DNA from: Qipengyuania nanhaisediminis
GTDB lineage: Bacteria; Pseudomonadota; Alphaproteobacteria; Sphingomonadales; Sphingomonadaceae
Reading direction: 5' to 3'
Length of the DNA: 64,000 nt
Assembly (NCBI RefSeq): GCF_900115585.1
Contig: NZ_FOWZ01000002.1
Location: 558,001-622,000, forward strand
Part shown: positions 5,684 through 62,514 of the stretch, piece by piece
Layout: every line of letters starts with the position of its first letter
How positions within the stretch are numbered: position 1 is the first letter of the stretch
Notes under the pieces: model-generated
Databases searched by the model: none
What the model was told of the DNA's origin: nothing
What the model saw: the letters and a program-made list of their open reading frames with translations, nothing else
Position numbers and translations under genes: made by a program

Positions 5684-8600
5684 TCAATGGAAGTCGCGCG
5701 ATTTCGGAATGATGCGCACATCGCGCGGGTGGCTGCCATGCCAGCCGCATTCGCGATTGCCCGGCGGCGGTTCCTGCCACGGCTCGACGGGCTGGTAGGG
5801 ATCGTCCCTGCCCTCGCGCAGATTGTCGCGTGGATTGAACTTGTCCGGCAGCGGCGAAGAGACATGGTCCGCACGCGCAAGCGGGGCGTTGAGCATGTCG
5901 TCGGACAGCCTGTGCAACTGGTCGGTCGCATCGGTCATGTGATGCGCGATCACGTGGATCACCTCGTCATCATATTCGACACGCCCGCGCACCTCCATCA
6001 GGCGCGCGCCCATGACCACGCGGCGCTGCTTTTCCTTCAGGTCCGGCCAGACGACGAGATTGATCACGCCCGTCTCGTCTTCCAGCGTGATGAAGCACAC
6101 GCCCTTGGCGCTGCCCGGACGCTGGCGGATCAGCACCACACCTGCGACATGGACCATGGAGCGGAATTTCTTCGCGCGCAGGTCGCAGGCGCGCACGAAG
6201 CCGCGCTCTGCAAGGCTGGCGCGCAGGAAGGCCATGGGATGCGCTTTCAGGCTGAGGCGCGTGGTCTGGTAATCCGCAACGACCTCTTCCGACAGCGGCA
6301 TCTGCGGCAGGCGCGTAGGCTGTTTTTCCGCCCCTTCGTCCCGCGCAACCGCTGCAGCGAACAAGGGCAGGTCCGGTCCGCCGACAAGGCTGCGGGCATC
6401 CCACAGGGCCTGCCGCCGCGTAAGGCCCATCGAGCCGAAAGCATCCGCACTCGCCAGCCGCTCGACATGGGCGGGACCGGTGCGGGCACGGTCGCGCAGG
6501 GCGCGCACATCGGCATAGGCGCCGTTCGCCTCGCGCTCCGCGATCAGCTGCGCCGCCACCGCCTCGGGTAAGCCGTCGATCTGGCGCAGGCCAAGGCGCA
6601 GCGCGATATGCTTGTCGAGCCGTCCGCTATCGCCCGCACCCGCACCGCCTTCGCCGGTCCGCTCCAGCGTGCAGTCCCACTGCGACAGGTTCACGTCCGC
6701 CGGGAGCACACGCACGCCGTGTTCCGCCGCATCGCGCACGATCTGGGCAGGCGCGTAAAAGCCCATGGGCTGCGAATTGAGCAGCGCGCAGGCGAAGGCG
6801 GCGGGGAAGTGGCATTTGAGCCAGCTCGATACGTAGACGAGATGCGCGAAGCTCGCCGCATGGCTCTCGGGAAAGCCGTATTCGCCGAAGCCGCGGATCT
6901 GGTTGAAGCACCGCTGCGCGAAGTCGCGATCATAACCGCGCGTCACCATGCGCTCGACCATCATGTCCTGAAGCTCGTCCACCATCCCGCGGCTGCGGAA
7001 GGTCGCCATGGCCTTCCTGAGCCGGTTCGCTTCCTTGGAGGAGAACTTCGCCGCATCGAGGGCGATCTTCATCGCCTGTTCCTGAAAGATCGGGACGCCC
7101 AGCGTGCGCTCGAGAATGCTCGACAATTCGTCCGGCGGGCCATGCTGCGGACTTGGCGCCGGGATGACCACGGGTTCGGCTCCGCGTCGGCGCTTCAGAT
7201 AGGGGTGGACCATGTCGCCCTGGATCGGCCCGGGACGCACGATGGCGACCTGGATGACGAGATCGTAGAACTGGCGCGGGCGCAGGCGCGGAAGCATGTT
7301 CATCTGCGCCCGGCTTTCGACCTGGAAGACGCCGAGCGAGTCCCCTGTGCGCAACATGGCATAGGTTTCCGGGTCCTCGCGCGGGACATTGGCCAGCGTC
7401 AGCGTGCGGCCGTGATGATCGTCGAGCAAGTCGAGGCATTTCCTGATGCAGGTCAGCATGCCCAGCGCCAGCACATCGACCTTGAGGATGCCCAGTGCCT
7501 CGATATCGTCCTTGTCCCACTCGATGAAACTGCGATCGGGCATGGCGCCATTGCCGACCGGCACCGTCTCGGTCAGTGCGCCTTCGGTCAGGATGAACCC
7601 GCCGACATGCTGCGACAAATGGCGCGGTATTCCAATCATTTGCTCGGTCAGTTTAAGAACCCGCTTCAGGTGCGGATCGGTCACGTCCATGCCGGTTTCC
7701 TGGGCGTGCTTCTCGCTGATCTCGCGGCCCCACCCGCCCCACACCGTCTTGGCGAGCGCGGCGGTGACGTCTTCGGTCAGCCCCATCGCCTTGCCCACTT
7801 CTCGGATCGCCATGCGCGGGCGGTAATGGATGACCGTGGCGCATAGCCCGGCGCGGTGTCGGCCGTATTTGCGGTAGAGATACTGGATCACCTCCTCGCG
7901 CCGCTCGTGCTCGAAATCGACGTCGATATCGGGCGGCTCCTTGCGGTCTTTGGAGATGAAGCGGTCGAAAAGCAGCTGGTGCTGTGCCGGGTCGACATTG
8001 GTGATGCCGAGGCAATAGCAGACGGCCGAATTGGCCGCGCTGCCGCGTCCCTGGCACAGGATCGGCGGGTCGACCTTCTCGCGCGCGAAATCGACGATGT
8101 CCTTGATGGTCAGGAAGTAGCGCGCCAGCTCCATCTTGTCGATCAGCGCGAGTTCCTTGTGCAGCGTTTCGGTGACGCTATCGGGAATGCCTGCCGGATA
8201 GCGCCACTCGGCACCCTTCCACGTTTCGCTTTCGAGATATTCCTGCGGTTCGACGCCGCCGGGATAGAGTTCTTCGGGATATTCGTATTTCAGCTCGTCG
8301 AGGCTGAAATCGCAGGCATCGGCCACTTCGCGCGCGGCGGAAATGGCGTGCGGCCAGCGTTCGAACAGGCGGCACATGGTCTCGGGCGGTTTCAGGTAAC
8401 GCTCGGCATTGCCGTGGAGCAGGTGCCCAGCCCGCGCCACGGTGGTCTTATGCCGGAGCGCGGTCATCACGTCCTGCAGCGGCCGCCTGTCAGGCGTCGC
8501 GTAATGGACATCGTTGGTGGCAAGGATCGACAGGCCGTTCGCACGGGCCAGCGCATCGAGCCGCTCGATCCGCGCGATGTCACTATCGGTATAAAGAAAG

Positions 8601-9223
8601 GCCGCAGCGATATGGCGCAGGGTCGGCAGGCCCGCGGCAAGGTGCGGGATGATGTCCTCGAAGGGGGCGGCGACCAGTTCCTGCACCTTCTCGCCGCCGA
8701 GCCCGACGACATTGCTTGCCCATGCGGGGACGGTGAATTCGCGCGCAAGGTCGCGCGGGGGAAGCAGGATGAGTTGCACGCCCTCGCTATGTCGCGCGAG
8801 CATGAGAAGCGAGATGTCGCACTCGCCCTTCTCCTGCCATTCGCCCGACAGCGTGCGCATGCGCCCGGCGGAAATCAGGCGGCACAGGCGGCCATAGGCC
8901 TTGCGGTTATTGGGATAGGCGAGGAAGGCCAGCCCCTCGACCGTTTCGATCCGGCAGCCGATGCAGGGCTTCAGCTTGAGTGTCTTCGCCTCGGTATGGA
9001 CGCGCACCACGCCTGCCATGGTGTTGGCATCGGCGATCCCGACCGCGTCATAGCCCAGCGCGCGCGCCTGCAGGACGAGGTCGACCGCGTCCGACGCGCC
9101 GCGAAGGAAGCTGAAACAGGATACAAGGCCGAGTTCGACAAAGGGGCTGCGCGGAGGGGCGTCTATGCCCGCAGGGTCGAGATCGATCGTCCGCTTGGGT
9201 ATCTGGAGGTCGTTCTCGGGCAT
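5684..9223 (-). CDS. dnaE2: Error-prone DNA polymerase III alpha subunit DnaE2 (ImuC)
   Basis: Translesion polymerase of the ImuA-ImuB-DnaE2 mutasome, 1179 residues. Order of domains: N-terminal PHP domain from about residue 28 (SCFSFLRGAS), C-family polymerase core with the catalytic PDIDVDF motif, fingers including GFPESHAASFAHLVYVSSWLKCHFPAAF, a helix-hairpin-helix region, and a C-terminal OB fold (VHVAGVVLIRQRPGSAKG). The PHP motif reads GASD where active family members usually have GASH, fitting the inactive PHP expected of this subfamily. It starts 1 base after the stop of the udgX gene and is the third gene of a unit headed by a LexA box. Confidence 0.96.
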   Translation of the reverse strand: MPENDLQIPKRTIDLDPAGIDAPPRSPFVELGLVSCFSFLRGASDAVDLVLQARALGYDAVGIADANTMAGVVRVHTEAKTLKLKPCIGCRIETVEGLAFLAYPNNRKAYGRLCRLISAGRMRTLSGEWQEKGECDISLLMLARHSEGVQLILLPPRDLAREFTVPAWASNVVGLGGEKVQELVAAPFEDIIPHLAAGLPTLRHIAAAFLYTDSDIARIERLDALARANGLSILATNDVHYATPDRRPLQDVMTALRHKTTVARAGHLLHGNAERYLKPPETMCRLFERWPHAISAAREVADACDFSLDELKYEYPEELYPGGVEPQEYLESETWKGAEWRYPAGIPDSVTETLHKELALIDKMELARYFLTIKDIVDFAREKVDPPILCQGRGSAANSAVCYCLGITNVDPAQHQLLFDRFISKDRKEPPDIDVDFEHERREEVIQYLYRKYGRHRAGLCATVIHYRPRMAIREVGKAMGLTEDVTAALAKTVWGGWGREISEKHAQETGMDVTDPHLKRVLKLTEQMIGIPRHLSQHVGGFILTEGALTETVPVGNGAMPDRSFIEWDKDDIEALGILKVDVLALGMLTCIRKCLDLLDDHHGRTLTLANVPREDPETYAMLRTGDSLGVFQVESRAQMNMLPRLRPRQFYDLVIQVAIVRPGPIQGDMVHPYLKRRRGAEPVVIPAPSPQHGPPDELSSILERTLGVPIFQEQAMKIALDAAKFSSKEANRLRKAMATFRSRGMVDELQDMMVERMVTRGYDRDFAQRCFNQIRGFGEYGFPESHAASFAHLVYVSSWLKCHFPAAFACALLNSQPMGFYAPAQIVRDAAEHGVRVLPADVNLSQWDCTLERTGEGGAGAGDSGRLDKHIALRLGLRQIDGLPEAVAAQLIAEREANGAYADVRALRDRARTGPAHVERLASADAFGSMGLTRRQALWDARSLVGGPDLPLFAAAVARDEGAEKQPTRLPQMPLSEEVVADYQTTRLSLKAHPMAFLRASLAERGFVRACDLRAKKFRSMVHVAGVVLIRQRPGSAKGVCFITLEDETGVINLVVWPDLKEKQRRVVMGARLMEVRGRVEYDDEVIHVIAHHMTDATDQLHRLSDDMLNAPLARADHVSSPLPDKFNPRDNLREGRDDPYQPVEPWQEPPPGNRECGWHGSHPRDVRIIPKSRDFH

Positions 9224-9224
9224 G

Positions 9225-10661
9225 TCACGCCAGCTCCTCCAGCCGCGTCTTCACTGCGGCGAGATCGGCATCGAACAGCCGTGCCTGCTCTTCGCGCGCG
9301 GGGCCTTCGAGGCGGAGGAGATAGGAGGGGTGCGCGGTGACCCACAGCTCGCTGCCGTCTTCGAGCGGAATGGGCGCGCCGCGGACCTTGGAAATGCTCA
9401 CCGTCTTGCCGAGCAGCCCCCGCGCCGCACTCGCCCCCATGGCGAGCACCAGTTTCGGTTTTACGATCGCGCGCTCGCTCTCGATCCACCAGCGGCAGGT
9501 GTCGATCTCCTTCGCACCCGGGTTCTGGTGGAGCCGCCGCTTGCCGCGCTGGACATATTTGAAGTGCTTCACCGCATTGGTGACATAAGCAGCGCGCCGG
9601 TCGATCCCGACCTTTTCCAGGTGCACGTCCAGCAGCTGACCGGCAGGACCGACGAAGGGACGGCCGATCTGGTCCTCCTGGTCGCCCGGCTGTTCGCCGA
9701 CAATCATCAGCGCAGCGTCCTGAGGTCCTTCGCCCATGACCGCATGGTTATCGAGGCTGCCGATAGGACATTTGCGGCAGGCATGGATCGCCTTGTCGAT
9801 CGCGGCGAGCGTATCGGGCCGCTCCTCGAATTCGAGCGCGCCTTTCTCGACCATCTTCGCCTCGCGTCCCTGCGCGCCCGCGACCAGCTCGGGGATGAGC
9901 GATGCCTCGGGCATGTTCTTCCAGTATTTCTTCGGCATTTCCTTTAGCATCGCGCCGATTTTCAGACGCGCGGGGTTGAAGATGGAGGCGTAATAGGTGC
10001 GCCAGAGGTCCTCCATCGGATCGCCGCCGGGCGCATCGTGGCGCTCGGCAGGCGGACCTTCGGACATGGTCTCCCCGTCCCAGTGCAGGCTGCCGCGCGG
10101 GGTCAGGATCGACCAGCGCATGTTGGAGAAGCGCCGCATGAAGAAACCCGCATTGGCGCGCAGGATGTGATGCTCGGGCTCGAACCAGGCGACGTAATGC
10201 TCGCCCACTTCCTCGTCCTCGCTCTCCACCAGCCGAAAACGGACAAAGGCGTGCATCTTGTGGCTGTCGCGCCGCACGTTCTTGTCGAGTTCTTCCACGC
10301 GGCGGACATCGGGATCGGCCTTGTCTTCCATCATCCGCGGGGAAGACTGGAGCCGCCAGAGCAGGCGGTAGAGCAGCGCGAACCGCTCGGGGTCGGAATG
10401 CAGGATCGCATTCCTCGCCAGGCTCACGAAGCGCCGGTTGGCGCGCACCGGCTTCGCATCCATCGGCGGCACGGGCATGCGCCGTTCCCCGTGAGCGAAC
10501 AGGTCGCCACTTCCGCCCGGTTCAACCCACGCGATACGATCGGGCGGGACATCGCACTGGACCAGCGCCCGCGCCCTCTCGCGCCAGAAGTCGAAGTCAT
10601 CGGCTTCGGGCAAATGCACCACGTAATAGGTGCCGAGCTTGACGTGCTGGAGCGCAGTCAT
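9225..10661 (-). CDS. udgX: DUF4130 / UdgX-type uracil-DNA glycosylase superfamily fusion
   Basis: 478 residues with two parts. Residues about 1-260 are a DUF4130-type domain. The C-terminal part is a UDG-superfamily domain with motif A GEQPGDQED at 322-330, RPFVGPAG soon after, the R-loop GKRRLHQNP with His near residue 378, and HPSYLLR with His near 444. An early CRKC pair plus a later Cys suit the iron-sulfur cluster of this group. KRR[IL]H is the hallmark of UdgX, which forms a covalent bond to uracil-containing DNA through that His rather than simply excising uracil. Its start overlaps the radical SAM gene by 4 bases (ATGA), and it abuts dnaE2. Confidence 0.9.
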   Translation of the reverse strand: MTALQHVKLGTYYVVHLPEADDFDFWRERARALVQCDVPPDRIAWVEPGGSGDLFAHGERRMPVPPMDAKPVRANRRFVSLARNAILHSDPERFALLYRLLWRLQSSPRMMEDKADPDVRRVEELDKNVRRDSHKMHAFVRFRLVESEDEEVGEHYVAWFEPEHHILRANAGFFMRRFSNMRWSILTPRGSLHWDGETMSEGPPAERHDAPGGDPMEDLWRTYYASIFNPARLKIGAMLKEMPKKYWKNMPEASLIPELVAGAQGREAKMVEKGALEFEERPDTLAAIDKAIHACRKCPIGSLDNHAVMGEGPQDAALMIVGEQPGDQEDQIGRPFVGPAGQLLDVHLEKVGIDRRAAYVTNAVKHFKYVQRGKRRLHQNPGAKEIDTCRWWIESERAIVKPKLVLAMGASAARGLLGKTVSISKVRGAPIPLEDGSELWVTAHPSYLLRLEGPAREEQARLFDADLAAVKTRLEELA

Positions 10662-11902
10662 GCCGCGAACAATTCAAGCTGCTCTGCCTTGGGCGCGAGC
10701 AGGCTGCGCAAGTCGGCGCGGTCGGTCAGCGTGATAGGCCGCCAGTCGACGGTGCAGATGAAAGGTCGCACCTTGGTGATCGACTGGGTGAGCAGTGCCA
10801 CGTCGTCCAGCCGCAGCGCGCGATGGCGGCGGCTGGCGAGGATCTTGCCCACCGCCTTTACCCCGAGACCCGGCACGCGCAGCAATTGCTCCTTGCTCGC
10901 GCGGTTCACGTCGACCGGAAAGGCCTCTCGGAACTTGAGCGCCCAGGCGAGCTTGGGATCGATATCGAGCGGCAGGTTTCCATCCGCCTCGGTCGCCTGC
11001 ATCACGTCGCTGGGCTTGTAGCCATAGAAGCGCATCAGCCAGTCGGACTGGTAGAGCCGGTGTTCGCGGATCAGCGGCGGGCGCTTCAGCGGCAGCACGG
11101 CGCTGGCATCGGGGATCGGCGAGAAGGCGCTGTAATAGACGCGGCGCAGGCGGAAATTGTCGTAGAGCCGGCTGGCCTTGCCCACGATATCGGCATCGGT
11201 CGCGGCATCGGCACCGACGATCATCTGAGTCGACTGGCCCGCGGGCGCGAAACGCGGAGCGTGCTTGAAGCGCTTCCTCGCATCCTTCGCCTCGACGAGG
11301 TCGGATTTTACCTTGCCCATCGCGCCTTCGATCTGGCGCGCATCCTTGTCGGGCGCGAGACGGGTCAGGCCGCTGTCGGTCGGCAGTTCAACATTAATCG
11401 AGACGCGATCGGCATAGAGCCCCGCCTGGTGAACGATTTCCGCATCCGCCTCGGGGATGGTCTTCAGGTGGATATAGCCGCGAAAATCGTGCTCTTCGCG
11501 CAGGATGCGCGCGACTTCGACGATCTGCTCCATCGTGTGATTGGAATTCTTCACGATGCCCGAAGAGAGGAACAGCCCCTCGATATAATTGCGGCGGTAG
11601 AAGGCGAGCGTCAGGTCCACCACCTCCTGCGGCGTGAAGCGCGCCCGCGCCACGTTCGAGCTCTTGCGGTTGACGCAGTAATGGCAGTCGAACACGCAGT
11701 GATTGGTCAGCAGGATCTTGAGCAACGAGATACAGCGGCCGTCGGGCGCATAGGCATGGCAGATGCCCATCCCTTCGGTCGAGCCGATACCCTTCCCGCC
11801 GAGGCTGTTCTTCTTCGCCGTTCCGGACGACGCACAGGAAGCATCGTATTTCGCCGCATCGGCGAGAATCTCGAGCTTCTGGAGGATCGTTTGCGCGGCC
11901 AT
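10658..11902 (-). CDS. Radical SAM protein linked to UDG (putative DNA modification or repair)
   Basis: 414-residue cytoplasmic radical SAM protein of the type found beside UDG-superfamily genes. The 4Fe-4S/SAM cysteines are C69, C73 and C76 in CVFDCHYC, an unusual CX3CX2C order that fits this family. The N-terminus KLEILADAAKYDASCASSG is typical, and a helix-hairpin-helix DNA-binding motif lies near the C-terminus (VNRASKEQLLRVPGLGVKAVGKIL). The substrate is not established. It is first gene of rSAM-udgX-dnaE2. The ATG at 11902 is only 2 bases from a LexA box, so either the transcript is nearly leaderless or the operator overlaps the ribosome site. Confidence 0.9.
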   Translation of the reverse strand: MAAQTILQKLEILADAAKYDASCASSGTAKKNSLGGKGIGSTEGMGICHAYAPDGRCISLLKILLTNHCVFDCHYCVNRKSSNVARARFTPQEVVDLTLAFYRRNYIEGLFLSSGIVKNSNHTMEQIVEVARILREEHDFRGYIHLKTIPEADAEIVHQAGLYADRVSINVELPTDSGLTRLAPDKDARQIEGAMGKVKSDLVEAKDARKRFKHAPRFAPAGQSTQMIVGADAATDADIVGKASRLYDNFRLRRVYYSAFSPIPDASAVLPLKRPPLIREHRLYQSDWLMRFYGYKPSDVMQATEADGNLPLDIDPKLAWALKFREAFPVDVNRASKEQLLRVPGLGVKAVGKILASRRHRALRLDDVALLTQSITKVRPFICTVDWRPITLTDRADLRSLLAPKAEQLELFAA

Positions 11903-11904
11903 AT

Positions 11905-11919
11905 GTTCACTATACGTTC
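11905..11919 (-). promoter_or_regulatory. LexA (SOS) box of the rSAM-udgX-dnaE2 operon
   Basis: GTTCACTATACGTTC is an exact match to the alphaproteobacterial LexA consensus GTTC-N7-GTTC. It lies 2 bases upstream of the ATG of the radical SAM gene, so LexA bound here would block transcription and cover the start region. A second exact copy sits before imuA. Confidence 0.88.
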
Positions 11920-12096
11920 CGCTGTAGGATTCGCAAATATCAAAAGATAACCGAGCGGGAACCTTCGCGCATTATCCTCGTAATTTCACCACGGACCGGG
12001 CCCCTCTGGCGTGCATCCGCACGTGATGTCGGACGTAAGTAACGCCGACGGCCTGTCAGATACGAAACTACGACATCGTCGGCATACCTACATTCA

Positions 12097-13438: not shown

Positions 13439-13756
13439 ATGCGTGCTGCCCTTTTCGTGTCGTCCCTTGCCGTCTTGGCTACCCCGTCGCTTGCCCAGGA
13501 TGCCGATGCCCCGGTCGAGGAAGACAGCCGCGAAGTGCGCAAGTGCATCGCGCCGCAAGTGATCGTGCCGACCTTCAACAACACGCCCGAAGCGATGGAA
13601 CAGTCGCGCATCGCGGCGACGATGTTGGCGGGCGACCTGGTGTGCAAGACCAGTGCGCTCAATCCCGAACTTTCGGAACTCCAGCACGGGCCTGAAGAGG
13701 CCCTGCTCCCGGACGAGGAAGAAGCTGGCGAAGAAGCCGCAGCCGAGCCCGCCTAG
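13439..13756 (+). CDS. Small exported protein of unknown function
   Basis: 105 residues with a clear signal peptide (MRAALFVSSLAVLATPSLAQ, cut near residue 19). The mature part has two Cys (CIAP and VCKT), possibly a disulfide, and an acidic low-complexity tail rich in Glu and Ala. I do not recognise a family. The ATG has the site AGGAG 6 bases before it. It converges with imuB, the two stops overlapping by 4 bases. Confidence 0.75.
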   Translation: MRAALFVSSLAVLATPSLAQDADAPVEEDSREVRKCIAPQVIVPTFNNTPEAMEQSRIAATMLAGDLVCKTSALNPELSELQHGPEEALLPDEEEAGEEAAAEPA

Positions 13757-15342
13757 GCGCACAACCCCTGCAAATACCAGTCGGGTGCGCCGCCGCGCCC
13801 GTCCCCCACGATGCCGAGCCTGTATATCCAGTACCGGCGGCCGCGGTCGTCCTCGATCCGGTAATAGTCCCGCAGCCGCGTGCTGCCGCGTTCGCGCCAC
13901 CATTCCGGCGCGATCCGTTCGGGCCCTTCGACGCGCGTCACCTCATGCACGCCGCCGCGCCAGCGAAAGCGCTTGGGATAGCCGTCGGGCGTTGCGTAGA
14001 GCACCGAAATCCTTTCCGGTTTGTCTAGCATTTTCAATGGCCTCTTGTGGAAAGCCAACTCTCCTTGTGAAGCGGGTTCCGGGTCCAGCGGGGGCTGCCA
14101 GCGCTGTGCGCGTTCGGGGATATGACTGGCAAAAGCGACGGGACGGCTGACCGCCTTCGCCCCGAGCCGCACGGTCAGCCGGTCGATGCAGGCCGACAGC
14201 GATGTGCCATGCGTTTCGACCGCCGCCTCGATATCGCCCTGCTCCAGCGCGAGCGGTTCGGACCAGCTGGCGCGCAGGCGCAGCATCTCGATCCCGAAAC
14301 CCGCATCGACGTCGTCCAGCCGCGCGGCGAAGAGGCGACATATATGCGCCGCTTCGCGCGAGGCAGAGGCCATTTCCAGGCGGCGCACGACGACTTCGCC
14401 ATCGACACGCCACATGCCCAGTTCGAGCCGCCTTGCCCCCTCGCCGCGCCCTTCCAGTTCGCGCGCCATGTCCTGCGCGAGGTCTTCGACGACCTTGTCC
14501 AGCAGCTGGCGGTGGCGGATCGGCTCCATCAGGCGGCGCTGCACCAGCGGCATGTGCTGCGGGACCACGGGCAGCAAGGGCTCCGGCACCCGGCCGAGGA
14601 TCTGGTCGAGACGGATAAGCGGGTTGGCGGCAGGCGACTTGCGGTTGCGAAAGCGGCGCTGGATGGCATCGCGCCCGCTGCCTCCGTTCTCGATGCCGGT
14701 CAGGTCACCCAGCCGCTTGAGGCCGAGCCGCCGCAGGACCGTGAGCACATCGTCGTCGAGCCGTAGCGCTGCGACAGGCAGGTCCGCCAGCCGGGCCTCG
14801 AAATCGCCCTGCCCTTCCAGGATCGCGCCTTGCGGGCCGAAATGCGACAGCGCCCAGGCCGCACCCGCCGTTGGGGCAATGGCACAGCGCAGGCCAAGTT
14901 CGCGCCGCGCGAATGCCGCCTCGACGTCGGCGACCAGCTTCTCCTCGCCGCCGAACAGGTGCGGGACGGCGGTAACGTCGACCAGCAGGCCGTCGGGCGC
15001 GTCCATGGCGGACCACGGCCCCCAGCGCCGCGCCCAGATCGCCAGCTTTTCGAGAAAGGCGAGATCGCCTGCCGGATCGCTCGGCGCGGTGACGATGTCG
15101 GGGCACAGGGTCCGCGCATCGGCCAGCATCATACCGCGACGGGCGCCTGCCGCCATGCCTGCGCTGTTTGCCGCCTCGATCCGCGGTCCGTGTGCGGTAT
15201 CGGCGATCAGGACCAGCGGCCGGCTGTCTAGTGCACGGCGGTCATCGCCCCCCGCATTGCGCCAGCGATCCATCGCCATTGCGGGCAACCAGATCGAGAG
15301 GATGCGGCGGGAAGACACGGCATCCGGCGTCTTCGCGCTCAT
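13753..15342 (-). CDS. imuB: ImuB, catalytically inactive Y-family polymerase-like mutasome hub
   Basis: 529 residues from the ATG at 15342, which overlaps the imuA stop as ATGA. It has the Y-family fold, but the acidic residues that bind catalytic metal are absent: the first strand reads RILSIWLPAMAMDRW instead of the VDMDAF type, and the second site reads LLVDVTAVPHLFGG. A beta-clamp motif QGELAF (QxxLxF) lies at about residues 426-431. In characterised systems ImuB bridges the sliding clamp, ImuA and the polymerase DnaE2. Here dnaE2 is 4 kb away in its own SOS operon rather than directly downstream. Confidence 0.93.
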   Translation of the reverse strand: MSAKTPDAVSSRRILSIWLPAMAMDRWRNAGGDDRRALDSRPLVLIADTAHGPRIEAANSAGMAAGARRGMMLADARTLCPDIVTAPSDPAGDLAFLEKLAIWARRWGPWSAMDAPDGLLVDVTAVPHLFGGEEKLVADVEAAFARRELGLRCAIAPTAGAAWALSHFGPQGAILEGQGDFEARLADLPVAALRLDDDVLTVLRRLGLKRLGDLTGIENGGSGRDAIQRRFRNRKSPAANPLIRLDQILGRVPEPLLPVVPQHMPLVQRRLMEPIRHRQLLDKVVEDLAQDMARELEGRGEGARRLELGMWRVDGEVVVRRLEMASASREAAHICRLFAARLDDVDAGFGIEMLRLRASWSEPLALEQGDIEAAVETHGTSLSACIDRLTVRLGAKAVSRPVAFASHIPERAQRWQPPLDPEPASQGELAFHKRPLKMLDKPERISVLYATPDGYPKRFRWRGGVHEVTRVEGPERIAPEWWRERGSTRLRDYYRIEDDRGRRYWIYRLGIVGDGRGGAPDWYLQGLCA

Positions 15343-16121
15343 CGGGCACGGGGCGAGCGGCGATGCTGCAACCCGGCCGTCCAATCCGCCACCGCGCGAT
15401 CGGTGTCTTCACGCGCCTTGCTGGCGGTTAGCGAAGTTTCTCCGCCACTCAGCGTCCATGTGCCCGGGGCATGGGAGCGCGCGCGGAAAAGCTCCGCCTT
15501 CCAAGCCGGATCGCCGGGAGCCTGCGCATTCCATTCAGGCGGAGCAGACGGCGCGCTGGCCACTTCCCAGCGCATCCGGGCAGACGACAGGTCGTGCGCG
15601 GCATCGATCCGCACGAGGAACAGCGGGATACCATGTCGCTCGCTCGTCAGCGTCAAACGGCGCGAGGCGGTGAAATCGAGCGCCTTGGCATTGCCTGCCA
15701 TCTCGCCGATCACGAAGGCGAAATCACGGCAGCGCAGCCCTTCTTCTAAGGCGAAGAGCGCATCCTCGGCCTTTTCGGCCATGACATGGATGAGCCGCGA
15801 TTGCAGCCCTTGAGGCAGGCCTGCGCGATAGGGCCGCCCGTTCAGGCGCGCCGCATCGCGGGTCTGCACCCACAGCACGTTGCGCCGGTCGTCGGCTTCG
15901 CTGCCATCGGCGCGCGGCAGGTGCTGCAAGTCGTCGAGCGCCAGCGCCAGCGCCACCCCTGCCCCGGCCGCATCGCCCGAAGCGGTGAACACTTCAGTGT
16001 GGTGAGCGGCCCCCTGCACTGCTGCAAGGCCCGGGCGCCAACGCACGCTGCGCCGCGCGGACAGCGCCGCAACGTCTTCGAAGGCCGTTATCGGCAGGGA
16101 GGAAAGATCGGCATGGGACAT
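15339..16121 (-). CDS. imuA: ImuA, RecA-like mutasome accessory protein
   Basis: 260 residues, first gene of imuA-imuB. It resembles the ImuA family: a RecA-like core with a degenerate nucleotide-binding region (EVFTASGDAAGAGVALALAL near residues 43-62) and the pattern DFAFVIGEMAGNAKALD-FTASRRLTLTSERHGIPLFLVR typical of ImuA. It interacts with ImuB and RecA in studied bacteria. The ATG at 16121 is preceded 18 bases upstream by an exact LexA box, so expression is expected only after DNA damage. Confidence 0.88.
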   Translation of the reverse strand: MSHADLSSLPITAFEDVAALSARRSVRWRPGLAAVQGAAHHTEVFTASGDAAGAGVALALALDDLQHLPRADGSEADDRRNVLWVQTRDAARLNGRPYRAGLPQGLQSRLIHVMAEKAEDALFALEEGLRCRDFAFVIGEMAGNAKALDFTASRRLTLTSERHGIPLFLVRIDAAHDLSSARMRWEVASAPSAPPEWNAQAPGDPAWKAELFRARSHAPGTWTLSGGETSLTASKAREDTDRAVADWTAGLQHRRSPRAR

Positions 16122-16139: not shown

Positions 16140-16154
16140 GTTCTCATTATGTTC
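16140..16154 (-). promoter_or_regulatory. LexA (SOS) box of the imuA-imuB operon
   Basis: GTTCTCATTATGTTC is an exact GTTC-N7-GTTC match, 18 bases upstream of the imuA ATG. The spacing allows normal repression of a promoter overlapping this site. The divergent stress-protein gene starts 115 bases to the right and could share the region. Confidence 0.88.
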
Positions 16155-55422: not shown

Positions 55423-55499
55423 CGGGGAGTAGCTCAGCCTGGTAGAGCACTGTCTTCGGGAGGCAGGGGCCGGAGGTTCGAATCCTCTCTCCCCGACCA
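55423..55499 (+). tRNA. tRNA-Pro(CGG), probable integration target
   Basis: Cloverleaf: acceptor CGGGGAG/CTCCCCG, anticodon stem CTGTC/GGCAG with loop TTCGGGA, anticodon CGG, T arm GGTTCGAATC, CCA encoded at 55497-55499. The gene is intact. An integrase gene reads toward it 97 bases downstream, which fits integration at its 3' end. Confidence 0.96.
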
Positions 55500-55557
55500 A
55501 TTTTCGTCACGAGAAACAGCAGGAATCCAAGGTTTTCGCCCTGAAATTCTCTCTTTT

Positions 55558-55577
55558 GAGACAGGGGTCGGAGGTTC
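55558..55577 (+). repeat. 20-base near copy of part of tRNA-Pro
   Basis: GAGACAGGGGTCGGAGGTTC matches 55460-55479 of the tRNA (GAGGCAGGGGCCGGAGGTTC) at 18 of 20 positions. This covers the tRNA from the anticodon arm into the T arm. It may be a remnant of an attachment site or of an older integration. Confidence 0.5.
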
Positions 55578-55594
55578 ATTCTGAACCTCCGACC
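55566..55594 (-). terminator. Hairpin next to the integrase stop
   Basis: GGTCGGAGGTTC-ATTCT-GAACCTCCGACC is a perfect 12-bp stem with a 5-base loop. It ends 1 base before the integrase stop codon and probably acts as its terminator, although the T tract is weak. Its left arm is the tRNA-like repeat. Confidence 0.55.
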
Positions 55595-55595
55595 G

Positions 55596-56585
55596 TTAAC
55601 GAGGCCGCCTACGGACTGCGTTCGATACCTTTTTCAGATAGTGGGGCGAGTATCGCGCATAATGTTTTTGCGTCGTTTTATCGTCATCATGGCCCATGTA
55701 CTGAGCCAATTCCGACATCGGGGTGCCTGACTCAGCTGCCCATACAGCGCCCGTATGCCGCAGCATATATGGCGTAACCTTCTTGCCATACCGTTTGCTA
55801 GCCGCTTGAAAGGCTTTCTTGACCGTTCGAATGGGTTTGCCCGCATAATCAATTACATAGTCGCTCTGACGAGCTTTAAACGCAGCTAGCAATGCGTCCA
55901 GAAGTTCGGGATTGATGGGAACTGTCGGACGAATTTTGGCGGTTTGTACGCGACCGTCTTGGTTGAATTCGATCTGTTCCATATCGAATTTCACCTGCTT
56001 CCAGCGCAACTCCAAAATCGCCGATGGTCGCGCCATAGTGTAGAGGCCGATCAGTGCATAAAGCTGCACATGCGGAGCTTTAATAGAGCTATAGAACAGC
56101 TCGAACTCATCTTGTGTCAGGTGGCGCACCTTACGCGGTGGACTTGGAGGCATCCAAATCTCGGCTTGAGAGGCTAAGCGAGCTTCTTTGGGAGCAAAAT
56201 TCAATGAAGTGGATATCAGCTGAAGTTCATAGCGAGCTGTTGCAGCGCTGACTCCGCGTTGTTCGTAATACTCCTTGCACATTTTCTTATCGATGAGCGC
56301 TGGGTGCACTTTTTCCCAAAATGGCTTCATGGCCTTCCACGCATCAATTCTCCTTTGCAGGGAGGGAGGCGAATCCTCTGCCAACGCTTCAATATAACCA
56401 GTAACGGCGCGACCGACTGTCCAAGGTGAGGTGTCGGCATTGGCCCATAATTGCCTGGCTTCAGCTTCTGCACTTTTACGGTCGCGAGAATCCAGCTTGC
56501 GTCGGTGGCGTTGCGAGCCTTCGTACCAAACCAGTGCAAAACCGCCTCTGAGTTTCTGAATCGCATAAGGAAGTTTCACCGACAT
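55596..56585 (-). CDS. Tyrosine recombinase / phage-type integrase
   Basis: 329 residues. N-terminal DNA-binding part, then the catalytic domain from about residue 160: first Arg in TMARPSAILELRW, Lys in VQTAKIRPTVPI, Arg in YMLRHTGAVWAAESG (the usual His two residues before is Tyr), His in MGHDDDKTTQ, and nucleophilic Tyr in KHYARYSP. It is expected to integrate the island at tRNA-Pro. Its start overlaps the excisionase-like gene by 10 bases. Confidence 0.92.
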   Translation of the reverse strand: MSVKLPYAIQKLRGGFALVWYEGSQRHRRKLDSRDRKSAEAEARQLWANADTSPWTVGRAVTGYIEALAEDSPPSLQRRIDAWKAMKPFWEKVHPALIDKKMCKEYYEQRGVSAATARYELQLISTSLNFAPKEARLASQAEIWMPPSPPRKVRHLTQDEFELFYSSIKAPHVQLYALIGLYTMARPSAILELRWKQVKFDMEQIEFNQDGRVQTAKIRPTVPINPELLDALLAAFKARQSDYVIDYAGKPIRTVKKAFQAASKRYGKKVTPYMLRHTGAVWAAESGTPMSELAQYMGHDDDKTTQKHYARYSPHYLKKVSNAVRRRPR

Positions 56586-56956
56586 TCGAACCGCTCCACT
56601 TCACTAGCCCGGATCCGAACCAAGGTTCCGATCCGAAAATGCCCGAGGGTTTCGTTGCGAATTAAGCCGCGAATGATCCCTTCTGAACATTCCCAACGGG
56701 CAGCCAAAGCTGGCACGCTATACGGGCGGGCATCTTCGAGGCCTGCGTCCTGCGGAGGTCCATCGATTTGGCTTCTCCACTCTTGCCTCTCTCTGTCGAG
56801 TGAAACATTTCTGTCGCTTGAAAGCTTCTCTCCGATCGCGCCGGCCCCTTTTACGTTCGAACCGCAAGTGGCGTTGTCGTTTGTGGCTGGCTGAATTTCA
56901 GCTTCGACCGGACGAGATCTATTTTTGCGACTGAGTAGGTTGTCGTGAAAACTCAA
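56576..56956 (-). CDS. Excisionase-like helix-turn-helix protein
   Basis: 126 residues from TTG 56956, with AGGAGG 5 bases upstream. The N-terminal half is polar and disordered. The C-terminal half YSVPALAARWECSEGIIRGLIRNETLGHFRIGTLVRIRASEVERF is a MerR/excisionase type HTH. It overlaps the integrase and probably sets the direction of recombination or represses int. Confidence 0.8.
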   Translation of the reverse strand: MSFHDNLLSRKNRSRPVEAEIQPATNDNATCGSNVKGAGAIGEKLSSDRNVSLDRERQEWRSQIDGPPQDAGLEDARPYSVPALAARWECSEGIIRGLIRNETLGHFRIGTLVRIRASEVERFECR

Positions 56957-57018
56957 TTTTTCCTCCTGGGAGTGACTTCACACACCCCCAGGAAATCATT
57001 TCTCTTTCTTCTCTTGAT

Positions 57019-58332
57019 CTATGCAGTGCGGACTAGAGCTGCGGCGGGTTTCGCCTTTTCCAGATTCCCTGCTCGATTGATCTTAATGTGTCCCTCATTA
57101 GCGAGAGCCTTCAACAAGAACGCCAGATGACCGCGCCTCGTCTTAAATTCTCCCCCTGTTGCTGGGATGATGTCCTGCAGAGCTGGGAACTCAGCCTGTC
57201 TCCGCTTAAATTCGGCCACCAGATCCTGGCTCTTGATGGTTTCCTCTTCGGGGCCCCCGCCAGACATTTCTGAAATTATAGTCAGTACGGCATCCTGACT
57301 ATCCGCTGATGTGAATGTTTGGGGCTTCTGGCCCCTGGGCAATGTAGGATCCCACGAAGCGCATACGTTGGGAAATCTGCCTGTAAGATCCTCAAAGGCT
57401 CCTTCCCGTAGGCGTCGGAGCACTCTCGGTTTAAAATCCGCGTCTTTGGAGTTAGATTTGACGACGTTAGCGATGACGATGTCTCTCCGACCTAGATCCG
57501 GGTATAAGAATTGCAGATCGCCCAGCTGCTCAGTCTCGCCAGCTAATCGTAACTCAACAACGGTGCGAGGGCTTGTCGACCACATGGCCGCACCTCTTAA
57601 CCGATCCACCGCGCCCTCAAGAGGATCGCCCTCCCTGATCACGGCTGCCTTTGGACTGTGACCTACAATCGCCCAGAATACACTTTGGCGCTCAGAGACT
57701 CGGTTGAGGCGGAATAGAAAGTTCGTGGTAGCCTCGCTATTGGATAACTCGAAGCCAGCCATCGATACGGCGGAGTCCATGATGACGCCGATAATCTTGT
57801 CATCTTCTGGTGCTTCGGAGTTCCAATCTTCGATGAACTCTTCGATACCGCTCAACGTCATGGACCCTTGCCATTGTGATGTCTTCCCTTGGTAAAGCGA
57901 TGGATTCTTCTCGCAGAATTCCTCTTCTGACAAACTCAGGAAGGGTATTACATGAAGACGGTCGCAAAGTTTCTGACAGTCAATTTGAGGGAACTCGGAT
58001 TTCAGTCGCCGCGCAATCCCGCCGATGCGAGAGAACAAGTGCTCACGCAAATCTTCCGCAGAGAGCACAAGTATGTGTCCTCGCTTTCTTATGGGCCTCT
58101 CGAGCCATGCCGTTGGACCGGTGTCGCTTGGAGAAGCAAGATTAGCGGCCATCCAAAGCAGGAGTTGCGTTTTCCCGGTGGACCCGGGGCCAAACCACAT
58201 TGAGACACCAGTCGCAGGTAGAAGACCATCGATTGCAAAATTTGGGCATTCGTCAGCGGATGCAGCGGCTCCCGCACGGAACGCGCCGCTCTTCGCCTTT
58301 GATATCCAAAGGTTTCGGCTATTATCAGTCAA
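57019..58332 (-). CDS. RepA-like AAA ATPase (hexameric helicase type)
   Basis: 437 residues from TTG 58332, preceded by GGAGGT. A RecA/AAA-25 type fold: Walker A GPGSTGKTQ near residue 48, Walker B IIGVIMDSAVS, and a later Arg-bearing AMWSTSPRTVVEL motif. Related proteins are replicative helicases of plasmids and mobile elements, so the island may replicate when excised. A short C-terminal domain of about 100 residues has a Lys-rich end. It lies upstream of the excisionase-like gene on the same strand. Confidence 0.82.
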   Translation of the reverse strand: MTDNSRNLWISKAKSGAFRAGAAASADECPNFAIDGLLPATGVSMWFGPGSTGKTQLLLWMAANLASPSDTGPTAWLERPIRKRGHILVLSAEDLREHLFSRIGGIARRLKSEFPQIDCQKLCDRLHVIPFLSLSEEEFCEKNPSLYQGKTSQWQGSMTLSGIEEFIEDWNSEAPEDDKIIGVIMDSAVSMAGFELSNSEATTNFLFRLNRVSERQSVFWAIVGHSPKAAVIREGDPLEGAVDRLRGAAMWSTSPRTVVELRLAGETEQLGDLQFLYPDLGRRDIVIANVVKSNSKDADFKPRVLRRLREGAFEDLTGRFPNVCASWDPTLPRGQKPQTFTSADSQDAVLTIISEMSGGGPEEETIKSQDLVAEFKRRQAEFPALQDIIPATGGEFKTRRGHLAFLLKALANEGHIKINRAGNLEKAKPAAALVRTA

Positions 58333-58949
58333 TATTTACCTCCGCGACCAGCTAGGGGCGCGGGACTTAGCAACCCTCTCTATTGCCTGCAAATTTCTAT
58401 TCGACTGATTTACGACACATTTTGTCGAAAATTTATTGCAAAGAAGGTTTGTCGCTGGTCGGGGCCTCGCCGGTTCCAATCGAACTGCCCTTGGGCTCTG
58501 CTCATTCCGATAACAGCCTAGTTGGCGTATCTGGCGTTTTGATGGTTCAAACGGCAGAACGGCAACAGGGTGTTAGAGCAGAGTACGTCGCTTATCCCAA
58601 TAGCGCCATTTGTTCGACAACCCTCACTTCACACCAGCTCGACCTTACGAGCCCCAATTCCAACTTCAGGCCTATTGGCCTTACATAGATTGGCGACCGC
58701 CGGTCCGCTTTTGGTGCTTTTCGCGTTCCGCGATTACGTCAAGAACTAGGGTGGGAAGCGGAAAGTCCGGTTCTGGAAACGAAACCCGAGAAAGAAGACG
58801 CGTTCGCCATCAAACTGGCATGACTGCAAACGGCCCAGTTTCATCCATTTGCTGGCAAGGACTGCGGCGAGAAGCCGATAATGTTATTGGCTCCATTTCT
58901 CAGACTTTGTTGTTGATTAAGGCTCTGGTATTCATCGGCGTGTAACGCG
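58333..58949. other. Gene-free stretch upstream of the RepA-like gene
   Basis: About 617 bases with no convincing gene. Open frames here are short, poor in codon use, or shadow the next gene. An inverted repeat CGACA-CATTT-TGTCG lies at 58413-58427, 80 bases before the RepA-like start, and could be an operator or part of an origin. Nothing else stands out. Confidence 0.5.
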
Positions 58950-59522
58950 ATGGGAAACAACCCATCAAGGCGAGGAAAGGCCGAATTGCAGCATCGACTA
59001 ATCTTCATCTCTTGTATTTCTGTATTCGCAGCCAGCTGCGCGTCGCTCCAATCGGATTCCGGCTCTTCATCTCTTACTTGGAACGACGTCAAGACGTACC
59101 AGATTGAGATGGGCAAAGATGACGAAATTCTTGCACGCGTTGATCTGCAAATCGCAGGCAAAGAGGATGCCACTTATGATCGAACTTGGCCGCTGATCGC
59201 TGAAGAATTTTGCATCGCAAGGCGAGCTGATTTGCCACGCGACGTCCGGCGTATGGCGGAAACGCAGAGCGTGAGAGTGAGCCTGACACCTCTGCGCCGC
59301 AAACACGAGGAAACCGAGCGTTCGCGGTTAATGAGCGTAAGAGCATCCTGGCGCACCAATAAAGGGATGCCGGAAGGTACCGGGTTGGATACTCCATCGT
59401 GCAAGCGCTTTCCGACCGTGGGATATTCGACTTCGTTCGCGCGCGAGGTCCCTATCGATTTGCAGCAATCAGTGACGCTCTTTGGCGATGAAGGTCTTTA
59501 TCTTAAGGTTACGCCCAAATGA
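58950..59522 (+). CDS. Exported protein, first of three tandem paralogs
   Basis: 190 residues from ATG 58950 (TTG 58986 also possible). A hydrophobic signal LIFISCISVFAASC ends in a weak lipobox. The mature part is beta-rich with two Cys, C88 and C151. From the second Cys to the end is 39 residues, finishing in VTLFGDEGLYLKVTPK. The next two genes show the same pattern. ATGA overlap with the second gene. Function unknown. Confidence 0.75.
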   Translation: MGNNPSRRGKAELQHRLIFISCISVFAASCASLQSDSGSSSLTWNDVKTYQIEMGKDDEILARVDLQIAGKEDATYDRTWPLIAEEFCIARRADLPRDVRRMAETQSVRVSLTPLRRKHEETERSRLMSVRASWRTNKGMPEGTGLDTPSCKRFPTVGYSTSFAREVPIDLQQSVTLFGDEGLYLKVTPK

Positions 59523-60061
59523 TGCGATATCTTGTCCTCTTTGTAGCGCTTAGTTGCACAGCACCTTTCACTGCGACCGCGCAAGATAGCGAGGCAGAGA
59601 TGAGAGCAGCTCCTTTTGGGCATAGGCCGTGGGGACAGACTAACCCGGGTCAAGAACCCATTCAAATTGGCGTTACGATCGAGAAAGACGGGGAGTTTTT
59701 CTGGAGAGGGCAAGTCGACGGAAGACAAGATAGCATTGAGATATCGTCGGGCTTCAGCGAAAATCCAGGCTGCATTATCATTCTGACTGCCCTTGGTGGG
59801 ATCACGCCATCGCACACTCTTGCTGACGCTGGTGTGCCCAAGCTCAAGATCAACATCCGGCCGTATAACTCTAGAGCGGCCAATCCCGAACGCTTTGATT
59901 TTTCCTTTGAATATGAACGTTCAGTGCTGAACGGGAACCCTTGCCACGGTCGATCTGATGTCCGGATCACGACAATGAGCAACAGGCTTTACATCAAGTC
60001 AGGTGAGCGTGTGATCCTTCCGCCTTATTCGGGCTTTCAAATCACATTGGAGCGCAAATGA
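59519..60061 (+). CDS. Exported protein, second of three tandem paralogs
   Basis: 180 residues. Signal peptide to about residue 21 (TATA|QD). Beta-rich mature part with C85 and C142; 38 residues from the second Cys to the end, which reads SGERVILPPYSGFQITLERK. ATGA overlaps on both sides make a coupled operon. No family recognised. Confidence 0.75.
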   Translation: MMRYLVLFVALSCTAPFTATAQDSEAEMRAAPFGHRPWGQTNPGQEPIQIGVTIEKDGEFFWRGQVDGRQDSIEISSGFSENPGCIIILTALGGITPSHTLADAGVPKLKINIRPYNSRAANPERFDFSFEYERSVLNGNPCHGRSDVRITTMSNRLYIKSGERVILPPYSGFQITLERK

Positions 60062-60510
60062 TCGGTTTTCTTGCATTCGTGCTTGCCGCTTCTGCTCCGC
60101 CTCCTCCTGTTCCGAGCCCTGAGCAGCAGCCGTTTTATCTGGTCGATTTCACGGTCACACTCGACGGTGAGACCATCGTCGAGGGTAGCAAAGAGGTCCG
60201 CACGGGCGTTTACGCAACCGAGACACGTACCCGCGTTTTTCCTCCGGCTTGTGACAAGGGGGCGGTTGAATTCGGGTATCGGAAGATCACGCTTTATGTG
60301 AGGGAAAATGGACGCCCGGAGGAAAGGGCTGGTCTCTATTTCAATATCGAAGAGCGAAGGGAAGTCGACGATCACAACAATGATCCATGCGAATGGCAGC
60401 GGCCGAAGGACGTCAACCACAGCTTTCATGGCCACGTTGATCTAGAGCGCGGAGAAGAGAAGGTTGTCGATGTTGGCCATGGTGCCTTGCTCCACATCAA
60501 AAGGCGCTGA
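60058..60510 (+). CDS. Exported protein, third of three tandem paralogs
   Basis: 150 residues. Short signal peptide (MIGFLAFVLAASA) and a Pro-rich segment, then beta-rich sequence such as YLVDFTVTLDGETIVEGSKEV, with C65 and C111, and 39 residues from the second Cys to the end (RGEEKVVDVGHGALLHIKRR). Third gene of the operon. No family recognised. Confidence 0.75.
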   Translation: MIGFLAFVLAASAPPPPVPSPEQQPFYLVDFTVTLDGETIVEGSKEVRTGVYATETRTRVFPPACDKGAVEFGYRKITLYVRENGRPEERAGLYFNIEERREVDDHNNDPCEWQRPKDVNHSFHGHVDLERGEEKVVDVGHGALLHIKRR

Positions 60511-60621
60511 CCGATTTTGGAGGCAAAACCTGGCTCTCAAAAATTTCCGTTTTCACCCCATTCTACGACATTACGACCCAGCCCAATAGCGTCTGCTCTT
60601 AGCAATCAAAGTGTTCCGCAC

Positions 60622-60712
60622 TTATGACGGAGATCGGGTCGCTAGCTGACCGTACGCTCCTGGCACTGCGCAAGCTCGGCAATTCAGTCATAAACTGGGG
60701 TGGTCAGCTGCC
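60622..60712. repeat. Dispersed island repeat, copy A
   Basis: Matches the core ATCGGGTCG-TAGC...CGCTCCTGGCA...GGGTGGT[CT]AG seen in three other places. It ends at the stop codon of the minus-strand gene at 60704. It is the most diverged of the long copies. Confidence 0.7.
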
Positions 60713-61084
60713 GTTCGGTTTAAGCCGCCAGTTTTCTGGTAGATCGGCGAAATAACCCCATGATTGCCAGGAATTTTCGCTGCCGGATGGTCGGCTCGAC
60801 AACCGCCACTCTGGCGGGTCGGGAAAGCCATGCCACGCCAGCTGCATCAGCAACAGGTCTTCGCCATTCTCCGTGGCATAATACTCGACATCGTATCCCG
60901 TCAGCTTTTCTCTTTCGATACCAAACACCGACGATCCAGCTTGTCTTATAGATGCCCAGCGAATGGGCTTGGTCGCTCTTTCTAGAAAACCGGCGAGTTG
61001 GGCGTCCGCTATTTCGTCGGAAGCATCCCATGGGTCAGCTTCCCAAGCGTTTGCAGCGGAATTCATACGGTCGTCTTGCGACAT
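60704..61084 (-). CDS. Hypothetical protein, 126 residues
   Basis: ATG 61084 is preceded by GGAGG. Soluble, acidic and rich in Trp (WEADPWDASDE, WHGFPDPPEWRL, WQSWGYF, ENWRLKPNGS). No signal or membrane segment. Its stop lies in repeat copy A. Unrecognised; possibly an immunity-like small protein, which is a guess from size alone. Confidence 0.65.
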   Translation of the reverse strand: MSQDDRMNSAANAWEADPWDASDEIADAQLAGFLERATKPIRWASIRQAGSSVFGIEREKLTGYDVEYYATENGEDLLLMQLAWHGFPDPPEWRLSSRPSGSENSWQSWGYFADLPENWRLKPNGS

Positions 61085-61120
61085 TCATGCCTCCTGTCTG
61101 ACATTAGTTCGCCACTCGAA

Positions 61121-61208
61121 CGTCCGCAATTGGTTCGTTAGCAGGCCGTCCGCTTCTGGCAGATCGCTATCTCGGTGAAACTGTCGTCAGATGGGTGGTT
61201 AGCGGACA
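61121..61208. repeat. Dispersed island repeat, copy B
   Basis: About 87 bases, roughly 78 percent identical by eye to copy C. GTCCGCT at 61148-61154 and AGCGGAC at 61201-61207 form an inverted pair. The copy contains the stop codon of the gene at 61199. Confidence 0.8.
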
Positions 61209-61519
61209 GCGCATTTACCACCTGACAAGAGACGACTCTTCTCAATTTGATCAGCGGTAACGATGCGATCAAAACGCTTCCAGAATGAGTCCGAATAATG
61301 TGCTTTGATCTCGGATTGTGGGGGGAACCGTCCGGTTCTGTGCATTGCGAGCAACTCCAACTTCAAAGAACGGAATGCTCGTTCACCCTCTGTGTCTTTG
61401 AAGTCGGATAGACCAGCGTCAAAATCTGGATAAAGCTCATCGGCCATCTGGTTCCAATAGCCTTCCATAAAGGTTTCGAACGCAGGTTGATTATCGTTTG
61501 GACTATTTTGCAAAGCCAA
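61199..61519 (-). CDS. Hypothetical protein, 106 residues
   Basis: TTG start at 61519 (61513 also possible). Soluble, with FETFMEGYWNQMADELYPDFDAGLSDF and a helical middle RSLKLELLAMHR. The C-terminal GGKCAVR and stop are encoded within repeat copy B. The N-terminal pattern recalls some toxin immunity proteins, but I cannot support that further. Confidence 0.6.
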   Translation of the reverse strand: MALQNSPNDNQPAFETFMEGYWNQMADELYPDFDAGLSDFKDTEGERAFRSLKLELLAMHRTGRFPPQSEIKAHYSDSFWKRFDRIVTADQIEKSRLLSGGKCAVR

Positions 61520-61561
61520 TCACTCTCTCAGGTACTGGGCTGATTAGTGAGGCCCTGAAAA

Positions 61562-61648
61562 TTCCGCAATCGGGTCGTTAGCCGACGGTCCGCTCCTGGC
61601 ACATCGCTAACTGGGTGAAGCTGTCACAAAGTGGGTGGTCAGGAGACA
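61562..61648. repeat. Dispersed island repeat, copy C
   Basis: Full-length copy of about 87 bases, beginning TTCCGCAATCGGGTCGTTAG. It lies 50 bases downstream of the minus-strand gene at 61699, in the gap before the gene at 61199. Confidence 0.8.
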
Positions 61649-61698
61649 CTGAGATATTTCGAGATCCGACCGCCAAAACTCGAACCCAAGATTAGAAG

Positions 61699-62223: not shown

Positions 62224-62293
62224 CCGCCGAATTTAGGCCTTCATAAATTAATTTATAGACACGGCCTTGCTGTAATAGCCAGCCTATCAAGAT

Positions 62294-62332
62294 GTCCGCA
62301 ATCGGGTCGTTAGCGGAATGTCGGCTTTTGGG
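62294..62332. repeat. Dispersed island repeat, short copy D
   Basis: GTCCGCAATCGGGTCGTTAG followed by CGGAATGTCGGCTTTTGG. It keeps only the left part of the repeat. The rest of the gap 62224-62514 holds no gene that I can see. Confidence 0.7.
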
Positions 62333-62514
62333 TAAAAATCCTTTCTTTCGGACGTTCTCGCCTTAGCTTCTGCATTTCGTCCTATAAGGTCAGAACTTCC
62401 AAATTCTGACCCACCTGTCGTTAGGCAGACCTGGCCGGGTCAGTACCTAGCGGTACCGGTTTTGGCCTAGGACCAGAAGGAAGCAGGTAGGTTTTGAACT
62501 AAGAGGAAAAGTAA

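Follow-up and report, generated by a model that had tools for sequence, protein, structure and literature searches.

We analysed a 64,000-nt stretch of the genome of Qipengyuania nanhaisediminis (contig NZ_FOWZ01000002.1, positions 558,001 to 622,000; hereafter the window), in which a gene for a radical S-adenosylmethionine (SAM) protein (rSAM), a gene for a DUF4130-UdgX fusion protein and dnaE2 follow one another behind a LexA-type box (Table 1). An earlier note on this DNA had described the three genes as tightly packed, and the open reading frame (ORF) coordinates agree, with a 4-nt overlap between rSAM and the fusion gene (10658-10661) and a 1-nt gap between the fusion gene and dnaE2 (position 9224). 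All three products score above their family cut-offs: the rSAM protein reaches 572.2 bits against TIGR03916 (cut-off 343.5), the fusion protein 231.5 bits against TIGR03915 (cut-off 112.25) and 319.1 against TIGR03914 (cut-off 189.95), and DnaE2 1371.5 bits against the error-prone polymerase family NF004225 (cut-off 939). In the host genome (2.9 Mb, 12 contigs) a single match to the fusion was found, along with two DnaE-type matches, the second of which is 30% identical to the window DnaE2.

The earlier note overlooked an imuA-imuB-like pair that lies 1.9 kb upstream of rSAM on the same strand; its two genes overlap by 4 nt and have a LexA-type box of their own, GAACATAATGAGAAC. The ImuB-like Y-family protein matches the IMS domain PF00817 (41.3 versus 23.2 bits) and DUF6504 (27 versus 24.2), both scored on a longer ORF, with IMS_C at 18.9 bits falling under its cut-off of 20.7, while the ImuA-like protein is named by position and relatives only, its NF033429 match (1.5e-5, 25 bits) being below the cut-off of 150. 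In other bacteria, ImuB is regarded as the bridge between DnaE2 and the beta clamp. A contiguous imuA-imuB-dnaE2 operon is not found here: the window holds a split mutasome in which rSAM-UdgX is placed before dnaE2, and genes for a carbonic anhydrase and a PilZ-domain protein occupy the opposite strand between the two halves.

Table 1. Positions of the operon, the upstream pair and their putative control elements in the window
Feature	Position	Strand	Basis or remark
Radical SAM gene (rSAM), TIGR03916	10658-11902	minus	414 aa; CxxxCxxC and family score
DUF4130-UdgX fusion gene	9225-10661	minus	478 aa; DUF4130 at residues 91-252, UdgX at 255-470
dnaE2, error-prone DNA polymerase III alpha	5684-9223	minus	1179 aa; NF004225
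imuA-like gene	15339-16121	minus	260 aa; sub-cut-off NF033429, position beside imuB in related loci
imuB-like gene	13753-15342	minus	529 aa from ATG at 15342; IMS domain
LexA-type box GAACGTATAGTGAAC	11905-11919	minus	ends 2 nt before rSAM ATG; putative -10 inside
LexA-type box GAACATAATGAGAAC	16140-16154	minus	18 nt before imuA-like gene
Putative -35 element TTGCGA	11931-11936	minus	aligned promoters of relatives
Putative -10 element TATAGT	11909-11914	minus	within LexA-type box GAACGTATAGTGAAC
C-terminal QLELF of rSAM, residues 408-412	10667-10681	minus	beta-clamp-binding-like motif

At the far end of the window (55423-64000), the guanine-plus-cytosine fraction drops from about 0.62 to 0.52, and after a tRNA-Pro gene (55423-55499) comes a phage-type integrase gene (55596-56585), with a resolvase-domain gene farther along (62515-63096). 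This region is likely an integrated element.

The radical SAM protein, DUF4130 and UdgX

Two comparison sets were used. A scan of genome contigs for relatives of the fusion found at least 584, the best 80 of which were analysed as loci; these are mutually related and nearly all carry Sphingomonadales names (L066, L098, L128 and L130 have other or broader ones), with Qipengyuania polymorpha as the nearest relative found (96% over UdgX). The phylum-wide set was one draw of 150 Pseudomonadota genomes, 38 Alphaproteobacteria among them, and neighbourhoods were taken from 20 of its 21 other rSAM genomes (G274 left out). We observe that rSAM and DUF4130 exceed their cut-offs in an identical set of 22 genomes of the draw, in each of which the two matches share a strand and are separated by no more than 0.64 kb. 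Two of 14 control genomes, those of Caulobacter vibrioides and Bacteroides ihuae, likewise have DUF4130 over cut-off. In this draw the constant unit is rSAM plus DUF4130.

The composition of this unit bears on the role that the earlier note proposed for the rSAM protein, namely repair or editing of the UdgX-DNA crosslink. The rSAM gene does stand upstream of the fusion gene, in the same orientation, in all 80 related loci (18 of them with more than 150 nt between the two), yet 5 of the 20 phylum-wide DUF4130 partners have no UDG (uracil-DNA glycosylase) domain (a separate UdgX was not searched for in those five genomes), and UdgX-like ORFs without DUF4130 also occur. Because these five partners are without UdgX, an rSAM protein that exists to edit the UdgX crosslink is disfavoured, and we regard this role as very unlikely. 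The wider gaps in the 18 loci often hold a gene, which in 5 of 5 Pfam-tested loci (L120, L121, L126, L131 and L142, from Stakelama, Sphingobium, Novosphingobium and Sphingomonas) encodes a hemerythrin HHE domain and in some others is a different gene. The intervening hemerythrin may protect an oxygen-sensitive cluster.

The rSAM protein, whose family we take to be COG4277, carries its CxxxCxxC motif at C69/C73/C76, with the three cysteines invariant in 48 sequences, and has a helix-hairpin-helix match at residues 329-359 that stays below cut-off. Its C-terminal QLELF is of the QLxLF type of beta-clamp motif and, like imuA-imuB, had escaped the earlier note. A tail of the form Q-[LMF]-[ED]-L-F closes 78 of the 79 nearest rSAM proteins (L104 gave no usable rSAM), the exception being L128, where the reading frame ends elsewhere. 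The stricter pattern Q[LM]x[LM][FLW] is found in 77 of these 79 and in 16 of the 20 phylum-wide proteins (missing from L177 and L179, which have QLGFGF, L181 with QGSLF and L185 with QMALAL), compared with at most 1 of 20 shuffled rSAM proteins. Of the 2988 mechanical ORFs of at least 150 aa from these loci, 94 carry the strict motif within the final 12 residues. The rSAM proteins account for 93 of the 94; the remaining one is a minus-strand frame of L097 with 381 residues, ending in QLSLL. The tail occurs in dnaE2-linked and unlinked loci alike. For comparison, QLSLF is given as the full clamp-motif consensus in an excerpt of PMC4549789. We read the tail as beta-clamp-binding-like, that is, as a putative docking site for the clamp.

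The constant pairing of rSAM and DUF4130 (22 of 22) would also fit an rSAM enzyme that modifies protein, installing a modification on DUF4130, which would itself be the DNA-acting enzyme. This we consider improbable, since the sub-cut-off helix-hairpin-helix match and the clamp-like tail of the rSAM protein are traits of proteins that act on DNA.

The claim that KRRLH at residues 374-378 of the fusion marks UdgX stands up to comparison: K374-R375-R376-L377-H378 aligns with KRRIH of Mycobacterium smegmatis UdgX, and motif A is GEQPG (residues 322-326) with Q324 in place. Across the 95 fusion proteins that exceed 400 aa, that of the window among them (5 shorter proteins were set aside), GEQPG and R376 are each present in 95 and H378 in 94, with an insertion in L189 that renders its alignment at R and H doubtful. 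In L106 the H378 position holds asparagine (KRRLN), the residue of family-4 UDGs, making it a natural variant of the crosslinker. The fusion model has a mean predicted local distance difference test (pLDDT) score of 83 over the whole protein, and its UDG domain matches UdgX structures with Z 28.6 (196 residues, 1.8 A) and a family-4 UDG with 26.9, UDG structures taking up the list of fold matches to this model. Since the UdgX score is only slightly above that of the family-4 enzyme, the assignment rests on the residues and not on the fold; Q324, R376 and H378 support UdgX as the probable identity of the domain.

Searches with tblastn using the rSAM protein also returned 158 plasmid records, one of which, on inspection, has rSAM-UdgX and no dnaE2 in the stretch shown, and 10 phage records, one of which, also inspected, has bacterial-looking genes. 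Neither set is used in the argument.

LexA-type boxes and the linkage to dnaE2

Boxes were searched as GAACN7GAAC, a motif that by itself is weak evidence: the window has 4 where 1.93 are expected, with 14 of 100 shuffles also reaching 4, and the whole genome has 80 against 67 for the reversed control. Since this genome-wide count is not clearly enriched, we rely on the position and conservation of the boxes. The box that the earlier note had seen ahead of the operon, GAACGTATAGTGAAC, has a counterpart within 41 nt of the rSAM start (starts being extrapolated in the related loci) in 78 of the 80 loci, in which box density is about 0.01 per 100 bp, and in 58 of these 78 it ends, as in the window, exactly 2 nt before the rSAM ATG. 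The other two loci are L104, which is cut by a contig end, and L108, which is without an exact box. The position of the box by rSAM exceeds chance, the 78 loci being related and hence not 78 independent cases. In the phylum-wide set, all 14 alphaproteobacterial loci (3 from the window's own family) have a LexA-type box no more than about 90 nt from rSAM, and 4 of 6 non-alphaproteobacterial loci have the E. coli-type CTGTN8ACAG by rSAM, counted without a shuffle control. The host lexA gene itself has a GAACN7GAAC box 33 nt upstream.

Alignment of 79 promoters (the window and the 78 boxed loci) revealed T at -18 in 94% and G at -16 in 95%, together with a TATA inside the box whose T and A at +5/+6 are invariant (100%). 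We read the conserved T/G and TATA as a probable -35/-10 pair with a 17-bp spacer and with the -10 element buried in the operator. The window promoter is shifted by one base, with TTGCGA and a 16-bp spacer, the TTG of the relatives lying one base further out. This layout suggests that the rSAM transcript would begin at or beside the ATG, as a leaderless mRNA.

A further box inside the UdgX gene (10278-10292), which recurs in 2 of 80 loci (L065 and L073), was rejected as a coding coincidence. Six further boxed places of the genome and four earlier loci were screened for nearby ORFs, and a RecA-like pattern sought in four loci (L230, L231, L232 and L011) was not found.

The three-gene neighbourhood that the earlier note proposed to look for in other genomes recurs in part. 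Its rSAM-UdgX portion is universal among the related loci, whereas dnaE2 follows UdgX in only 39 of 80, 38 by the script rule and L140, in which the match covered only the beginning of UdgX. An ImuB match falls within the same locus in 37 of 80. Where dnaE2 is linked, the estimated gap from UdgX is at most 21 nt in 32 of 38 loci, and a box sought from -300 to +100 of the UdgX-dnaE2 junction was found in none of the 38. The arrangement is consistent with a dnaE2 that is co-transcribed with rSAM-UdgX.

A strong rival to a functional link is neutral operon sharing, in which a free-standing SOS operon of rSAM and DUF4130-UdgX landed by chance between imuB and dnaE2, and dnaE2 merely borrows its LexA promoter. 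This explanation, which we hold to be possible without favouring it, draws on the 41 of 80 loci in which dnaE2 was not seen behind rSAM-UdgX (L114 and L115 end too soon). It draws further on the DnaE2-like matches found elsewhere (at least 47% identity, partial in some) in 36 of 36 unlinked genomes searched, out of 41 (L108, L114, L115, L125 and L128 left out), and on the classical order around them: of 30 unlinked DnaE2 loci, 25 have imuB upstream of dnaE2 in the same orientation (24 with matches less than 180 nt apart, and L224 at 0.7 kb), L200 has it divergent, and in L198, L205, L214 and L220 it was not found. The simplest history is the insertion of a boxed rSAM-UdgX unit between imuB and dnaE2. 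Three observations speak against neutral sharing. A second form of linkage exists in one genus of another family (L177 and L179, 2 of the 20 phylum-wide loci), in which rSAM-UdgX is divergent from imuA-imuB-dnaE2 with a single box between them, which in L177 lies 2 nt from the imuA ATG. LexA-type boxes accompany rSAM across classes, and the clamp-binding-like motif is kept whether or not dnaE2 is linked.

In one unlinked locus, L065 from Qipengyuania vulgaris, the fusion is 91% identical to that of the window and is not followed by dnaE2; the best DnaE2 match in this genome (G281) is only 57% identical, as if a linked copy had been replaced.

Proposed module and comparison with known systems

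The operon is a genuine one, preceded by a box and kept in near relatives. We propose that it encodes an SOS-induced, clamp-docked lesion-processing module that is co-expressed with gap-filling DnaE2, a reading that we hold to be the most likely of those considered, at about even odds. Cleavage of LexA would allow the promoter with its -10 element inside the box to yield one mRNA, probably leaderless, for rSAM, DUF4130-UdgX and DnaE2, and the second LexA-type box would release imuA-imuB. The rSAM protein could then dock by its C-terminal QLELF on the same beta clamp as ImuB and DnaE2 (DnaE2 fills gaps with ImuB and the clamp in Caulobacter, according to an excerpt of PMC8102061), where, with its constant partner DUF4130, it may act on damaged bases in or beside gaps through an iron-sulphur/SAM radical. 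The UdgX domain, where present, would excise uracil and cap the abasic site covalently through H378, a cap that may keep the site uncut in the single-stranded gap during filling by DnaE2. More tentatively, rSAM-DUF4130 could be a new class of direct lesion repair at the beta clamp that competes at gaps with mutagenic bypass, UdgX serving as a uracil-specific cap for abasic sites; we regard this extension as possible and rather doubtful.

Several observations weigh against the proposed module, in addition to the 41 loci in which dnaE2 was not seen behind rSAM-UdgX. DnaE2 is over cut-off in 48 of 150 genomes of the draw, in 17 of 22 with rSAM versus 31 of 128 without (P = 3e-6; overlaps tallied by eye from tables), but within the Alphaproteobacteria the figures are 15 of 16 versus 17 of 22 (P = 0.37), which is no excess, and the phylum-wide signal may be explained by shared ancestry. 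DnaE2 over cut-off is absent from 5 of 22 rSAM genomes, one of which (G188) has it in two pieces. A box looked for by rSAM was not found in L172 and L181, two of the six non-alphaproteobacterial loci. The clamp assignment comes from a short sequence match, and the structure model of the rSAM protein is weak (mean pLDDT 66) and yields no substrate.

The rSAM model gave no Foldseek match at 1e-3; its fold matches include lipoyl synthase, HydE, HydG and biotin synthase (best Z 11.3, 222 residues, 3.8 A), with none singled out. Spore photoproduct lyase (SplB) is absent among the NCBIfam matches at 1e-3 and among the 50 fold matches listed for the weak model, and a sequence search of PDB with rSAM reached at best E 0.28 alone and 0.075 as a profile.

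A reading of the operon as a defence system was dropped because a PADLOC search of the three proteins gave no match at 1e-3.

Should rSAM-DUF4130 indeed carry out direct repair at the clamp, a single SOS transcript would supply repair, protection and bypass at one clamp. The conserved tail and the likely shared SOS transcript raise a testable question, namely whether a radical enzyme operates at the sliding clamp while gaps are being filled. A promoter and operon prediction also follows from the comparison, and its box part is borne out by 78 of the 80 nearest relatives.

With respect to the literature, a search returned nothing on UdgX with radical SAM, UdgX with DnaE2, or a clamp-binding motif with radical SAM. 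Nor did the searches turn up a published clamp motif for this rSAM, and our novelty claims exclude the Verrucomicrobia LexA and Caulobacter SOS-regulon literature. Caulobacter has four UDG-family genes according to an excerpt of PMC1839093, which is not drawn on further. What is already known is the rSAM-DUF4130-UDG pair and the predicted SOS control of such a UDG operon. The pair is represented in NCBIfam by TIGR03916, TIGR03915 and TIGR03914, the same families that are here all over cut-off and adjacent as elsewhere, and a figure legend in PMC3765255 labels DUF4130 with an SplB-like rSAM and a UDG as mutagenesis-related. In the window this pair stands before dnaE2 under one LexA-type box, and that legend makes no mention of a clamp-like tail or of the promoter layout. 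A two-gene UDG operon, COG1573-COG4277, is predicted to be LexA-regulated in Bacteroidetes in an excerpt of PMC8565304, which cites this SOS operon also for Verrucomicrobia and Alphaproteobacteria and interprets it as base excision repair; its likeness to our locus is that of a UDG operon under predicted LexA control.

The M. smegmatis UdgX structures (6ajo, 6iod) share 41% identity over 196 residues (Z 28.6) and the Q, R, H signature with the window protein; signature residues including Arg107/His109 and the mechanism are described in an excerpt of PMC10359453, and the mechanism also in one of PMC10776899. In contrast to the mycobacterial protein, UdgX is here fused behind DUF4130 and paired with rSAM. 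Like the imuA-imuB-dnaE2 mutasome, the window has DnaE2, ImuB-like and ImuA-like proteins, each half under a LexA-type box, but dnaE2 is here split from imuAB and lies behind rSAM-UdgX. What our analysis adds to these systems is a pair united with dnaE2 behind one box, together with its promoter layout and the clamp-binding-like tail of the rSAM protein.

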